From Halorubrum trapanicum (GTDB lineage Archaea; Halobacteriota; Halobacteria; Halobacteriales; Haloferacaceae), in contig NZ_AP017569.1 of NCBI RefSeq assembly GCF_002355655.1, positions 1,550,001 through 1,614,000 of the forward strand: a stretch of 64,000 nucleotides of DNA. Direction: 5' to 3'. Shown here in pieces: positions 15,814-63,792 of the stretch. Under the pieces are notes generated by a model. The model was not told the DNA's origin. It was given only the letters and a program-made list of their open reading frames with translations, and made no database searches. The number at the start of each line of letters is the position of its first letter. Position 1 is the stretch's first letter. A program made the translations under genes and the position numbers.

Positions 15814-15834
15814 GGGACGCGGTTTCCGCGTCTC
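15814..15834 (+). terminator. Hairpin after the binding-protein gene, possible attenuator
   Basis: GGGACGCGG and CCGCGTCTC pair around a TTT loop (9 bp with one G-U), 15 nt after the stop. Its place between a binding-protein gene and its permeases suggests partial termination or transcript stabilisation; there is no following T-run. Confidence 0.4.
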
Positions 15835-15997
15835 GTCCGTGACGACGGACGCAGGGAGTTTTCGGCGCGGCGGTGAACGCGGACGCTCCCGGACGGTCGT
15901 CGCCGTCCGTCCACGGCCGCCAGACCGACGCGTCGGCGGGAGCGAAACGGATAAGCGACAGCAAAAACCGAATCGAAGCAACGAGGAATCCACGACA

Positions 15998-24235: not shown

Positions 24236-24323
24236 CGCGCGGCGCGAGCGCGATCGAACGCGACGCGCAAAGCCGACCCACGTAGGCAGTATTTAAATAG
24301 AGAAGCTGAGTCTGACGTACTTC

Positions 24324-24734
24324 TTATAAATGAACCGCGGTGGCGCGTGCCTGCGAGGCCGCCTCGCGGCCGAGCCGCGAGGGACCGGAGGTCCCTCTGG
24401 AAGCCGGCGCGAAGCGCCGGCGACAGCACCGCGCGAGGGACGCCGTGAGCGACGGGCGACCGAAGGGAGCCCGGAGCGAACGGCGAGGCTGGGGAGGTGT
24501 GAGGCGCTGTGCTGTGCGGGGCGGGACTCAAAGGGGCAGTCGCGAGGACGAAGCTCGGCGACGCAAGCACCGCAGGGAGCGAGTGAAACGAGCGACTGAG
24601 GAGCGCAGCGAGCCGCGCGAGTCCTCGCGGCTGGGACTTTGGAGGTGTTCGCTGTCGATCCGCTATCAACCGTTTATAAGCGAACGGCTGAGGCTTTGGA
24701 GGTCATCGCCGCGAAACGGTCGCCTGCCTATAAA
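24324..24734 (+). repeat. Interspersed structured element, copy 2
   Basis: TTATAAA at 24324 opens the element, 88 bp after the upstream stop. The core shows GGCCGC/GCGGCC, CGCCGT/ACGGCG enclosing CGGGC/GCCCG, and the closing stem CAGTCGCGAGGAC/GTCCTCGCGGCTG. The block GGGACTCAAAGGGGCAG is present, as is CTGGGACTTTGGAGG. Tail units start at 24631 and 24688 (57-nt spacing) with TATAA boxes at 24675 and 24729. A double-hairpin module (24376-24424) interrupts the core. The rest of the gap, to 24965, holds the promoter of the next gene. Confidence 0.8.
24376..24424 (+). repeat. Double-hairpin module, copy A
   Basis: GAGGGACC/GGTCCCTC (24379-24397, loop GGA) is followed by GCCGGCGC/GCGCCGGC (24403-24421, loop GAA). 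Relative to element copies 3 and 4, about 49 nt including both hairpins are extra, so this is an insertion into an older element. A related module with compensatory differences lies at 63560-63604. Confidence 0.75.
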
Positions 24735-57584: not shown

Positions 57585-58960
57585 CCGAGGACCGCGAGCG
57601 GTTCCGCGAGGTGGGCGAGAGCCGGCGGGAGGACCTCGCGGAGTTCATCAGCCGCGGCGACCTCGGCGGCTCCGACGCCGACCGGGTCAAGATTCCGGTG
57701 AAGGTGGTCGACCTCCCCGCGTTCGAGTACGACCAGCGCTCCGCCGGCGGGGTGGGACAGGGCGGCGACGGCCAGCCGCAGCCCGGCCAGCCGGTCGACC
57801 CCGAGCCGGGCGACGGCGACGAGGAGGGCGACCCCGGCGAGGAGGGCGGCGACCACGAGTACTACGAGATGGACCCCGAGGAGTTCGCCAAGGAGCTCGA
57901 CGAGGCGCTCGGGCTCGACCTCGAACCGAAGGGGAAGCGGGTGATCGAGGAGGTGGAGGGCGACTTCACCGACACCGCCCGCGCGGGGCCGCGGGGGGCC
58001 CTCGACGTCGACGAGTTCTTCAAGCGCGGGCTGAAGCGCCACCTCGCGACCGACTTTGACGAGGCGTACGTCCGCGAGGGGCTGTTCGTCGCGGGCGCCG
58101 ACGTCGACGACGTCTTCGCGTGGGCGCGCGAGCAGGGGATCCCGGTCTCCCGCGCGTGGGTCGCCGACGCGGCGGCGACGCTCGAAGGCGAGCGGGGCGA
58201 GCCGGTGGCGGCGCTCGACCGCTGGGAGAGCTTCGACGCGCTCGACGCCGAGGTCGACCGCGAGCCCGTCACCCACCGGATCCGCCGGGAGGGGCTCGAC
58301 AGCGTCCCGTTCCGCCGGGAGGACGAGCGGTTCCGCCACCCGGAGGTGATAGAGAAGCGCGAGCGCAACGTCGTCGTGATCAACGTGCGCGACGCCTCCG
58401 GCTCGATGCGCGAGACGAAGCGGGAGCTCGTCGAGCGCGTGTTCACCCCGATGGACTGGTACCTCACCGGGAAGTACGACGCCGCCGAGTTCCGGTACGT
58501 CGTCCACGACGCGGAGGCGTGGGAGGTCGACCGGGAGGAGTTCTTCGGGATCCAGTCCGGCGGCGGCACCCGGATCTCCAGCGCGTACGACCTCGTGGAG
58601 GAGATCCTCGAGGAGTACCCGTACGGCGAGTGGAACCGGTACGTGTTCGCCGCTGGCGACTCCGAGAACGCCGGCAGCGACACCACCGAGCGCGTGATCC
58701 CGAAGATGGAGTCGATCGACGCCAACCTCCACGCGTACGTGGAGACCCAGCCCGGCGACGGCGCGGCGAACGCCCGCCACGCCGACGAACTCGAGGAGGC
58801 GTTCGGCGACGCCGACGACGTGGCGGTCGCGCGCGTCTCCGAGCCGGACGACGTGACGGACGCCATCTACGAGATCCTCAGCACCGAGTCGTCGGGCGAC
58901 GGATCCGGGACCGCCGACGGCCGTGCGACGGGACGCGCGGACGGGGGTGAGCGGCGATGA
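57575..58960 (+). CDS. YeaH/YhbH family protein (UPF0229, DUF444)
   Basis: At 461 residues. The N-terminal [38 protein letters not shown] matches the family start; a Gly/Asp/Glu/Pro-rich stretch (about 60-95) follows; then the vWA-like domain contains [14 protein letters not shown] (DxSxS MIDAS-like, about 269-282) and [11 protein letters not shown]. In E. coli YeaH and the PrkA homologue YeaG work together in nitrogen-starvation response. It starts inside the end of prkA2 and its stop overlaps the spoVR ATG (ATGA), so the four genes are coupled. Confidence 0.92.
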
Positions 58961-61900
58961 GAGACGACCGGATCGAGGCGAAACGGGAGGCCGAGTCGCT
59001 CGACGAGCCGGCCCGCGAGGCGCGCGACCTCGCCGAGCGGCTCGGGCTGGCGCCGTACCCGGTGCGCTACTGGGTGGTCGACCACGACCAGATGAACGAG
59101 CTGATCGCCTACGGCGGCTTCCAGCGCCGGTACCCCCACTGGCGGTGGGGGATGAACTACGAGCGGCAGTCGAAGTTGGACCGCCACGGGCTGGGGAAGG
59201 CGTTCGAGATCGTCAACAACGATGACCCCGCGCACGCGTTCCTCCAGGAGTCGAACTCGACGGCCGACCAGAAGGCCGTCATCACCCACGTGGAGGCGCA
59301 CGCCGACTTCTTCGCGAACAACGAGTGGTTCGGGCTGTACGCCGACCGCGGCGAGGGCGGCCCGAACGCGGCGGCGCGGCTGGAGCGCAACGCCGACCGG
59401 ATCGCGGCGATCGCCGAGCGGACGGACGTCGACCGCGACGAGGTGGAGCGGCTGATCGACGCCGTGACCGCGTTAGAGGACACGATCGACCAGCACAGCC
59501 CGGTCGACGCCGCCCGGTCGGTCGAGGAGCCCGGCGTCGCGGCCGACGTGAGCGACGGTGACGACGACCCGCTCGCGGCGATCGAAGAACGGATCGACGA
59601 GCTCGACCTCTCCGAGGAGGTGCGCCGCGACGTGTTCGACGACGAGTGGCTGGAGGCGCGCGGCGAGGGCGTCGAGCCCGAGGAGCCGCGCCCGGACGTG
59701 CTCGCGTTCCTGCGCGACCACGGGAAGCGGTACGACTCCGACAGCGGGAAGGCGGTCGACCGCGAGCCGTGGGAGACCACCGTCATCGACGCGATCCGCG
59801 AGGAGGCATATTATTTTGCGGGACAGAAACAAACGAAGGTGATGAACGAGGGATGGGCCTGTGTCGCACCCGAAACTCCCGTCTTCACCGAGGGGGGACT
59901 CCTCCCGATGCGCGAGGTCGTTGATGATCTTCCCGCCGTATCGGACGGTGACGGGGCACAAGCCGTCTACGACTCCAACGTCATTTCGGATCACGACACC
60001 GTTTCGATCGAAACTCGACGCGGCTTCGAACTACGCGGCTCCGACAACCACCGGATCCGGAAACCAGACGGTTCGTGGGTCGAGCTACGAGATATCTCGA
60101 AAGGCGACAAGATCGAGATATCAGGTGGAGACGGTCTCTGGCCGACGAGTTACGTCGACGTCGACTGGCAGAACCCGGAACACACTACGCTCAACGACGT
60201 GGCCGCCGAGGCGGGCGTCTCGATCTGGACAGTTATGCGCTATCGTAAGACGGGGCGTGCGGAAAAGTCCGAGGCCATCGAGAGAGCATTTGCGTCGTAC
60301 GATGGGGAGAATCAGAGCGTCGCGAAGAGCGATGTCATCGCAGTTCCCGATCAAGTGTCCGAGAAACTCGGACGGTTTCTCGGATTACTGGTCGGAGACG
60401 GACACGTTTCGGAAGCGTCCGGACAGGTCGGATTTACATCCGGCTCGAAGGCCAAAGCGGAGGAGTTCGCCGGATTGGCTGACGAACTGTTCGGTATCTC
60501 TCCGACCGTCTCCGAAGACGGGGCTCGATGGCGGACGTACATTTACTCCGCGAATCTGGTTCGACTGCTCACGGAGTGGTTCGATCTGCGAACGGGTGCC
60601 GCCGACAAGGTCGTCCCGAAGCCAGTCCTTCGCTCGCCGAAAACGGTCGTGAGCGAATTCCTTAGAGGGTTGTTCGATGCTGACGGATACGCCGGGGACC
60701 AGGGGGTGATACTCAGCAGCAAGAGCGAATCGGTCTCGAAGGTCGTACAGTTACTGCTGACAAACTTCGATATTATCTCACGCCGTCGAGAGCAGTCCGA
60801 CGGCTGTTTCCACGTACATCTGACCGGCAAGTCCGCCGATCGATTCCATACGGAGATTGGGTTCGGCTACTCCTCTAAGGACGAAGCACTCGAGAGGTAT
60901 GTCGACGAACTCGCGTGGTTCGAAACCGAAGAGTGGACTGACGAGGTCGTAAGCGTCGAAGAGGGAACCGGAGACGTATACGACATCTCCGTGGAGGAAA
61001 CTCACCGATACGTGGGTGCCGGATTCATCAATCACAACTCGTACTGGGAGTCGATGATGATGGGCGGCGAGGGGTTCGCCGGCCCCGACGAGTTCCTCAC
61101 GTACGCCGACCACATGTCCCGGGTGCTCGGCTCGCCCGGGCTCAACCCGTACAAGCTCGGCTTCGAGCTGTGGACGCACGTGGAGCTGCGGGCCGCCCGC
61201 CGGGAGGTGACCGACAAGCTGCTCCGCGTCGAGGGGGTGACCCCCGAGAACTTCCACTCACGGGTCGACCTCGACGAGGTCGCCGACCTGCTCGAACCCC
61301 ACCCCGCAATCGCGGGCGCCGGCCCGGCGACGCTGGACGAGCTCGCCGACATGGCCGCCGACGGCGACCCGCGCGTCGACGCCGAGGCGGTCGACCGGGC
61401 GCTGTCCGCTCGGGAGGACTCCGCCAGCGGCGGTCCCGGCGAGGGCGAGACGGGCGGCGACAAGATCGACATCGAGCGCTACCCGTGGAAGCTGCTCACG
61501 CGCGAGGGGCTCGCCGAGCGCCACTACGTCCTCTCGCGGCCGGAACACCGGGGTGCCCTCCGGAACGTCTCCCGCGAGGCGCTCGAAGAGCAGGCGCGGT
61601 ACCTGTTCGACGTGGACCGGTACGAGACGGTCGCGGCGGCGATCGACGACGTCGACCGCGCGGCCGGCTGGGACCGCATGTTCGAGGCCCGCGAGAGCCA
61701 CAACGACGTGACGTTCATCGACGCGTTCCTCACGGACGAGTTCGTCCGCGAGGGGAACTACTTCACCTACGAGTACAGCCGGGCCACCGAGGAGCACCGC
61801 GTCGCCAGCGTCGACGCCGACGACGTCCGGAAGAAGCTGCTCCTCCGGTTCACGAACTTCGGGAAGCCGACAATCGTCGTGTTGGACGGGAACTTCCGGA

Positions 61901-62217
61901 ACCGCGGCGAGCTCCTCCTGGGCCACCGGTACAACGGCGTCGAACTCGACGAGGAGCGCGCGAAGGCGACCCTGAAGCGCGTCTTCGAGCTGTGGGGGCG
62001 CCCGGTGAACCTCGCGACGATCCGCGTCGAGTACGACGACGGCGAGATCCGGCGCGCCAAGCGGCGCGGCGAGGAACCCGAGGGCACCGAGGTCGGCGTG
62101 CGGTTCCAGTACGACGGCGGCGAGGTGACGGAACACGACCTCGACGCCGAGACCGAAGCCCGGATCGCGGCCGACGACGTCGACTACGACACGAAGCCCG
62201 ACGACTGGCTGGCGTGA
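58957..62217 (+). CDS. spoVR: SpoVR family protein with in-frame intein
   Basis: The precursor is 1086 residues; without the intein (302-694) the mature SpoVR-like protein is 693. Extein motifs are the family ones: [29 protein letters not shown] (about 36-64), [40 protein letters not shown] | [10 protein letters not shown] at the junction, [10 protein letters not shown] and [15 protein letters not shown] near the end. SpoVR affects spore cortex in Bacillus and works with PrkA and YeaH elsewhere. It is soluble with no signal peptide. The sequence around the insertion site in the extein is the most conserved part of the family, as usual for inteins. Confidence 0.94.
59860..61038 (+). mobile_element. 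LAGLIDADG-type intein in spoVR
   Basis: 393 residues from Cys1 ([13 protein letters not shown], block A) to Asn393 (VGAGFINHN, block G), followed by extein Ser+1. Block B is [12 protein letters not shown], block [19 protein letters not shown] homing endonuclease domain has two DOD motifs: [13 protein letters not shown] and [11 protein letters not shown]. Between block B and the endonuclease lies an HTH-like segment [19 protein letters not shown]. All splicing residues (Cys1, block B His, His-Asn end, Ser+1) are present, so it should splice. Its GC is visibly lower than the host gene. Confidence 0.94.
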
Positions 62218-63033: not shown

Positions 63034-63792
63034 CTACGCGAGCGCGGCGACCAGCTCCGACACGGCCGCGACCTCCTCGTCGTTGATCCCGTGGCCCATC
63101 CCCTCGTAGATCCGCTCGTCGACATCGGCGCCGAGCGCCTCCAGCACCGCGGTCGTCTCGTGGACCCGTTCCTCGGGAATGTGCGGGTCGACGTCGCTAC
63201 AGCCGACGAACGCGGGCGTGCCGGCGAGCGGGCCGTCGCCGTCAGCCGACTCATCCGCCGCGTCGCCGCCCGCGAGGTAGTCGTCGACGTCGACCGACTC
63301 GCCGATCAGCCCGCCGCTGAAGACGGCGAGCCCGCCGTAGCGGGTCGGGTTGCGGGCGACGAACTCGCTCGCGAGGCAGGCGCCCTGCGAGAAGCCGCCG
63401 ACGAGGACGCGGTCGCGTGCGATCCCGGCGTCGACCGCGCGGTCGACCGCGGCGCCGACCGCCCGGAGCCCGGAACTCCGACCCGGCTCGTTGTCTTCGA
63501 CCGGGGCGAGGAAGGAGTTCGGATACCAGGTGTTGCCGGCCGCCGCGGGCGCGAGTAGTGAGAGACCGGAGGTCTCTCCGACAGCCGGCGGTGAAGCCGC
63601 CGGCGAGAGCGCGACGTCGCGGTCGCCGGCCAGCTGCTCGCCGAGGTCGACGACGCTCCGAGCGGTCGCGCCGCGGCCGTGGACGAGCACGAGCGCCGCG
63701 TCGGCGTCGTCGAGCGGCGTCCCGGCCGTGACCAGCGGCTCGTCGCCGTGCGGGTCCTCGCCCGTGTGCGGTCCCGGAGCGCGGTCGGCCAT
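63034..63792 (-). CDS. Alpha/beta-hydrolase, phospholipase/carboxylesterase family, with inserted palindromic peptide
   Basis: At 252 residues. HGRGA (oxyanion region, about 38), nucleophile motif GGFSQGACLA (about 139-148), VGCSDVDPHIP (Asp) and EGMGHGIND (His) complete the catalytic triad; LVLVHGRGATARSV and AGNTWYPNSFLAP are typical of the YpfH/MhqD-like branch. About 17-18 residues (SPAASPPAVGETSGLSL, around 61-77) are extra relative to the usual spacing and coincide with a double-hairpin DNA module. The upstream partial gene ends 1 bp before its start, so the two form an operon. Confidence 0.88.
   Translation of the reverse strand: MADRAPGPHTGEDPHGDEPLVTAGTPLDDADAALVLVHGRGATARSVVDLGEQLAGDRDVALSPAASPPAVGETSGLSLLAPAAAGNTWYPNSFLAPVEDNEPGRSSGLRAVGAAVDRAVDAGIARDRVLVGGFSQGACLASEFVARNPTRYGGLAVFSGGLIGESVDVDDYLAGGDAADESADGDGPLAGTPAFVGCSDVDPHIPEERVHETTAVLEALGADVDERIYEGMGHGINDEEVAAVSELVAALA
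63560..63604 (+). repeat. Double-hairpin module, copy B, within a coding sequence
   Basis: GAGAGACC/GGTCTCTC (63560-63578, loop GGA) and GCCGGCGG/CCGCCGGC (63584-63604) repeat the structure of copy A (24376-24424), with compensatory changes in both stems. GCGAG flanks the module on both sides at 63551 and 63603, about 52 bp apart. It is in frame in the esterase gene on the opposite strand. Confidence 0.72.

Follow-up and report, generated by a model that had tools for sequence, protein, structure and literature searches.

A double hairpin within an esterase gene of Halorubrum trapanicum is best explained, with a probability that we put at roughly 0.6, as a mobile insert that is translated, is tolerated by the protein through its terminal LSL residues, and has been re-acquired through recombination between esterase alleles. 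An archaeal mobile palindrome would in this way have become part of a protein gene. The gene lies in a window of 64,000 nucleotides, the whole stretch of DNA that was analyzed, and the coordinates of its features are collected in the table. In the open-licence literature, we found neither a prior description of the element nor one of archaeal palindromic inserts that keep the reading frame. As filled and empty states both occur in dozens of related genes, the gain, tolerance, and spread of the insert can be studied directly.

The closest relatives of the esterase are found in named Halorubrum species, and the modelled protein matches the fold of carboxylesterase 4h0c. We compared 42 orthologues of the same group, drawn from Halorubrum and one record named Halobellus, with each species sampled by one genome. 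The insert is present in 12 and absent from 30, all at one exact codon junction, and in the empty genes precisely 17 codons are missing where V-A-(L/I/V) meets L-A-P. The preliminary description had proposed that the peptide is a palindromic in-frame insertion, and the clean 17-residue gap in 30 of 42 aligned orthologues bears this out; a segment of the same length is not shared by all close orthologues. No remnants of the insert were detected in the 30 empty orthologous genes, and it is lacking in every esterase of more distant haloarchaea whose sequence is readable at this point. The filled copies are 51 nt long, save those of genome G027 (48 nt) and H. lipolyticum (39 nt). All 12 are in frame, including these 3-nt and 12-nt deletion variants, and the frame that is used contains no stop. 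Alignment of filled with empty orthologues set both limits of the esterase insert unambiguously, with no target duplication.

On the minus strand, the insert encodes 17 in-frame residues, SPAASPPAVGETSGLSL, which are residues 63-79 of the esterase. The plus-strand letters of the element are TAGTGAGAGACCGGAGGTCTCTCCGACAGCCGGCGGTGAAGCCGCCGGCGA, and this orientation is the one common to the intergenic copies. The module had been assigned to 63551-63607; it does lie there, but the empty orthologues place its exact limits at 63556-63606. Of the GCGAG motifs described on both sides, the left one stands as target sequence, whereas the right one (63603-63607) is not a flank, being made up of the element’s own end, GCGA, and the first flanking base. 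The GCGAG pentamer also precedes the composite-repeat copies of the esterase-type subfamily. Folded as single-stranded DNA, the module region scored better than 199 of 200 shuffled sequences (z -3.2). As read from the sequence, the frame starting with TAG is the only one of the element’s six reading frames that is closed by a stop and the other five are open, so that tolerance in frame comes easily.

Table. Features of the esterase insert and of the related intergenic copy (positions in the window)
Feature	Position	Strand	Details or basis
Host gene, alpha/beta-hydrolase esterase (Abhydrolase_2, PF02230), 252 aa	63034-63792	-	ORF, family match, fold match
51-nt double-hairpin element, TAG-stem1-spacer-stem2-GA	63556-63606	+	Exact limits from 30 empty orthologues
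Stem 1	63560-63567/63571-63578	+	8 bp, GAGAGACC/GGTCTCTC, loop 3 nt (GGA)
Stem 2	63584-63591/63597-63604	+	8 bp, GCCGGCGG/CCGCCGGC, loop 5 nt (TGAAG)
GCGAG, left half of insertion site	63551-63555	+	Flanks compared, empty-site joins
GAGCGCG, right half of insertion site in the H. trapanicum genome	63607-63613	+	Empty orthologues
Peptide stretch of the insert region in the filled esterase			VALSPAASPPAVGETSGLSLLAP
Second family copy, inside the intergenic composite repeat	24379-24421	+	Two stems
Intergenic composite repeat	24300-24660, approximate	+	TTATAAA ... GCGGTGGCGCG ... CTCAAAGGGGCAG ... CTTTGGAGG

The effect of the insert on the protein was evaluated with AlphaFold models. Mean pLDDT was 90.7 for the filled protein and 92.5 for an empty orthologue, and the order of strands and helices is identical in the two. 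Strand beta-4 comprises residues 77-82 (LSLLAP) in the filled model and 61-66 (VAILAP) in the empty orthologue, and pLDDT in the filled model is ~52 over residues 61-70. In these models, the insert-encoded LSL stands in for VAL as the first half of beta-4, and the displaced VAL together with SPAASPPAVGETSG is predicted to be a low-confidence, disordered loop. The fold would remain unharmed because LSL, from the last three codons of the insert, takes the place of VAL in starting beta-4. The presumed catalytic residues S135 and H234 do not vary among the proteins, whether filled or empty. The models, which place the insert in a loop and keep the fold order, agree with the earlier proposal of a tolerated surface peptide. 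They point to a rule of tolerance by which the end of an insert re-creates the start of the beta-strand that it disrupts.

The module had also been described as recurring, and it does so both at 24379-24421, the only other double hairpin of the family in the window, and at tens of related places in the genome. The same-genome search returned about 45 places, mostly partial, the weakest of which are chance matches in genes. Across the genus, matches were present in 41 of 52 genomes; outside Halorubrum, at the threshold used, they are rare (17 of 243 genomes of the order, 4 of 78 genera). The family consists of genus-wide double hairpins of 45-51 nt with fixed ends, YAG ... GGCGA, in which the 5' tag is TAG preceded by G in esterase-type copies and CAG in many others. 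Stem 2 is nearly invariant across the family. Stem 1 is variable and falls into sequence families (GAGAGACC, GAGGGACC, CGTGGCGC, GAGGCGC, and GCGAGAGC), with compensatory changes at five of its eight pairs, a value as high as that in 0 of 500 shuffles; one whole-family structure alignment, in which 49-nt and 51-nt copies were out of register, was excluded from these counts.

We examined 103 distinct double-hairpin contexts, and nearly all of those outside the esterase are in a composite intergenic repeat. The esterase is the sole gene insertion among about 100 inspected contexts, a sample that was picked by resemblance to the esterase copy and so may not include every insertion in a gene. For each context the two flanks were joined and sought elsewhere, with one flank displaced as the control. 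An exactly joined empty site exists for 57 of the 103 contexts, compared with 3 and 5 in the controls. Within the composite repeat the hairpin element is found at many different points, its left flanks vary (GCGAG, GTAAG, CGCGG, GACTC, AGCGG, AGCGA, and AGGCG), and more than 10 different insertion sites were seen to lack a target duplication. The exact empty sites therefore imply fixed ends, a lack of target duplication, and many past moves. Judged by these sequence comparisons, the double hairpins are small mobile elements, a tiny family with boundaries exact to the base. Searches of viral contigs, by exact pattern, and of plasmid and phage records yielded no copy of the element, and no Rfam family matched it.

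The history of the esterase insert was followed on a gene tree built without it. Presence of the insert requires at least eight changes on this tree, at least five of them forced by well-supported branches. Between the two main clades, the inserts are 0.89 identical compared with 0.63 for the fourfold sites of the same genes, and insert identity exceeds fourfold-site identity in every pair. For H. trapanicum and H. saccharovorum, the insert differs at 2 of 51 positions and the fourfold sites at 49 of 116 (P 5e-10, where P values assume an unconstrained, neutral insert). With 89% versus 63% identity, the insert cannot descend from before the split of the clades unless strong constraint acts on its DNA; inserts so much more alike than silent sites therefore point to recent arrival, more than once. 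A signature, T4/A8/GG13-14, is carried by 9 of 12 esterase copies and by 1 of 88 other copies, which fits descent within one esterase lineage better than independent sampling of a pool and suggests, at the level of sequence, that the insert has spread from esterase to esterase. No shared recombination tract is visible, as cross-clade similarity within 15-120 nt of the insert is scarcely higher for filled genes than for empty ones, and the flanks directly beside it are clade-specific. Both short-tract allele recombination followed by reshuffling and targeted re-insertion could produce this pattern. A published study documents frequent recombination in Halorubrum (PMC3990103). As a tentative extension, perhaps one chance in a few, the inserts may form an esterase-specific, homing-like lineage of 51-nt hairpins, tolerated by the protein and enzyme-free, that crosses Halorubrum species with almost no co-conversion of flanks.

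Clade-specific flanks and the eight or more changes on the tree are also what would be seen if copies from a mobile pool had inserted repeatedly and independently into GCGAG^GAGCGCG or a looser target, with the esterase as a hot spot. The GCGAG^GAGC join is, moreover, the main site of the esterase-type subfamily in the composite repeat. Nonetheless, we consider independent insertion doubtful, as the signature is concentrated in the esterase copies, the best copy outside the esterase in the H. trapanicum genome is only about 80% identical, and the draft assembly of H. persicum (G018) contains no other close copy. The target is also not strict because the right-hand flank bases vary among filled genes (GAG, CAG, GAT, GAC, and CAC). 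A single old ancestral insertion followed by repeated precise excision is improbable. It would need 13 losses on the gene tree, and the cross-clade inserts are too alike for such an age, even though the empty genes hold no remnants and single-strand movers without target duplication (IS200/IS605 type) can leave perfectly.

That the segment is never translated, being spliced from the mRNA as an archaeal intron or bypassed by the ribosome, is very improbable given that all copies are in frame, that both indels are multiples of three, that no stop occurs, and that the model of the translated protein is sound. The double hairpins themselves would suit such a process, and GC clusters are bypassed in the mitochondria of the yeast Magnusiomyces (PMC8811140). 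GC-rich haloarchaeal DNA gives many short hairpins, and the peptide could be imagined as an ordinary variable surface loop with DNA that is palindromic by chance; the 51-nt unit is, however, dispersed through non-coding DNA and has exact empty sites, which refutes this idea.

In the preferred reading, that of a mobile insert spread by allele recombination, the esterase gene would have received one copy of a double-hairpin element that is GC-rich, non-autonomous, and widespread in Halorubrum genomes. The filled and empty genes show this insertion to lie between a V/I/L codon and an L codon, without target duplication and with the reading frame open. The ribosome presumably translates the insert, as frame conservation indicates, and in the models LSL takes over the start of beta-4 as VAL and SPAASPPAVGETSG are pushed into the disordered loop. 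From the divergence comparison, different species would later have gained the filled site more than once, most likely when esterase alleles recombined homologously over short tracts in a homing-like spread. The lack of target duplication and the near-terminal hairpins suggest that the original insertion may have been a single-strand (HUH/Y1-type) or copy-repair process. Y1 transposases, with the RAYT subtype lumped in, are present in 41 of 52 genomes but absent from several that carry the element, and the analysis linked no transposase to it. The single Y1 locus of the H. trapanicum genome was inspected for element-like ends. No such double hairpin is nearby, which gives no support to this IS200-type locus as one carrying the element at its ends, and no link to an IS605-type element was found there.

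A likeness to Rickettsia palindromic elements had been proposed for the insert. Those elements are short palindromes, in frame in genes and also present in non-coding DNA, that leave the host protein intact (PMC10969869, PMC3733652). The likeness extends to behavior, namely tolerated in-frame gene insertion with clean orthologue gaps (12 filled, 30 empty), and not to spread through many genes. Rickettsia elements are ~150 bp and occupy many unrelated genes, whereas the Halorubrum element is 45-51 nt, has two distinct hairpins and an archaeal host, and is known in one gene so far, being mainly part of an intergenic composite repeat; the two are likened by behavior alone. By analogy, the element comes closest in behavior to the optional GC cluster that lies in frame in var1 of yeast mitochondria. 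Yeast mitochondrial GC clusters are GC-rich palindromes, mostly intergenic, and those of var1 are optional, in frame, and spread by gene conversion and interspecies exchange at flanking homology (PMC8811140, PMC4478555). The Halorubrum insert is likewise optional, in frame, and a repeated recent arrival, but a co-converted flank was not seen. Yeast GC clusters are also mitochondrial and reportedly show AG/TAG target duplications, of which the Halorubrum element has none, and the parallel implies no common origin.

Other small elements resemble the double hairpin in part. In Haloquadratum walsbyi, PATEs have near-terminal palindromes, with terminal-only forms of 52 bp; PATEs and small mobile repeats are both transposase-free and without target duplication, and the small mobile repeats insert into other repeats (PMC3119063). 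The Halorubrum element shares with the PATE and IS200-IS605 type the lack of target duplication, of terminal inverted repeats, and of a gene, as well as the near-end palindromes, but it has no fixed 4-6-nt 5' target and its stem 1 varies widely. REP elements are short, dispersed, mosaic palindromes with a YAG/GTAG-like 5' tag (PMC3733652), and the GTAG type resembles the Halorubrum element, itself tagged G|TAG in esterase-type copies and CAG in many others; REPs, however, are single bacterial hairpins with a cognate RAYT, whereas the archaeal element is a double hairpin for which a RAYT was not identified. Two hairpins occur as one repeated unit, also within genes, in fungal and sponge mitochondria (PMC2800124), but those elements are organellar and have no sequence relation to the Halorubrum element. 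Classification as a MITE was rejected, as the two ends, YAG and GGCGA, do not form inverted repeats and the target is not duplicated.

The composite repeat matched no Rfam family. Its marker, CTCAAAGGGGCAG, is located at window positions 978, 24527, 27887, and 32198 on the plus strand. Allowing up to one mismatch, there are 166 copies in the H. trapanicum genome compared with 7 for the reversed control; other Halorubrum genomes contain up to 156 exact copies, and the marker is present in 48 of 52. A weak, sub-threshold Rfam match of the double hairpin to CRISPR-DR20 at 24393-24426 on the minus strand (E 0.012, 24 bits versus a cut-off of 42) was taken as chance; double hairpins of this kind could be mistaken for CRISPR repeats. 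One intergenic copy (L017, ~1440-1600) contains four successive hairpins with linkers GGCAG/GGCAA/TGACA, which suggests that elements grow by adding hairpin units. At another locus (L080, G021:C49), a tandem duplication covers the double hairpin along with the rest of the composite repeat’s left half. An unrelated double hairpin with 7-bp arms lies outside the element family at window positions 15816-15851. Also in the window, an intein bearing a LAGLIDADG endonuclease domain splits a SpoVR-like protein (58957-62217, plus strand).
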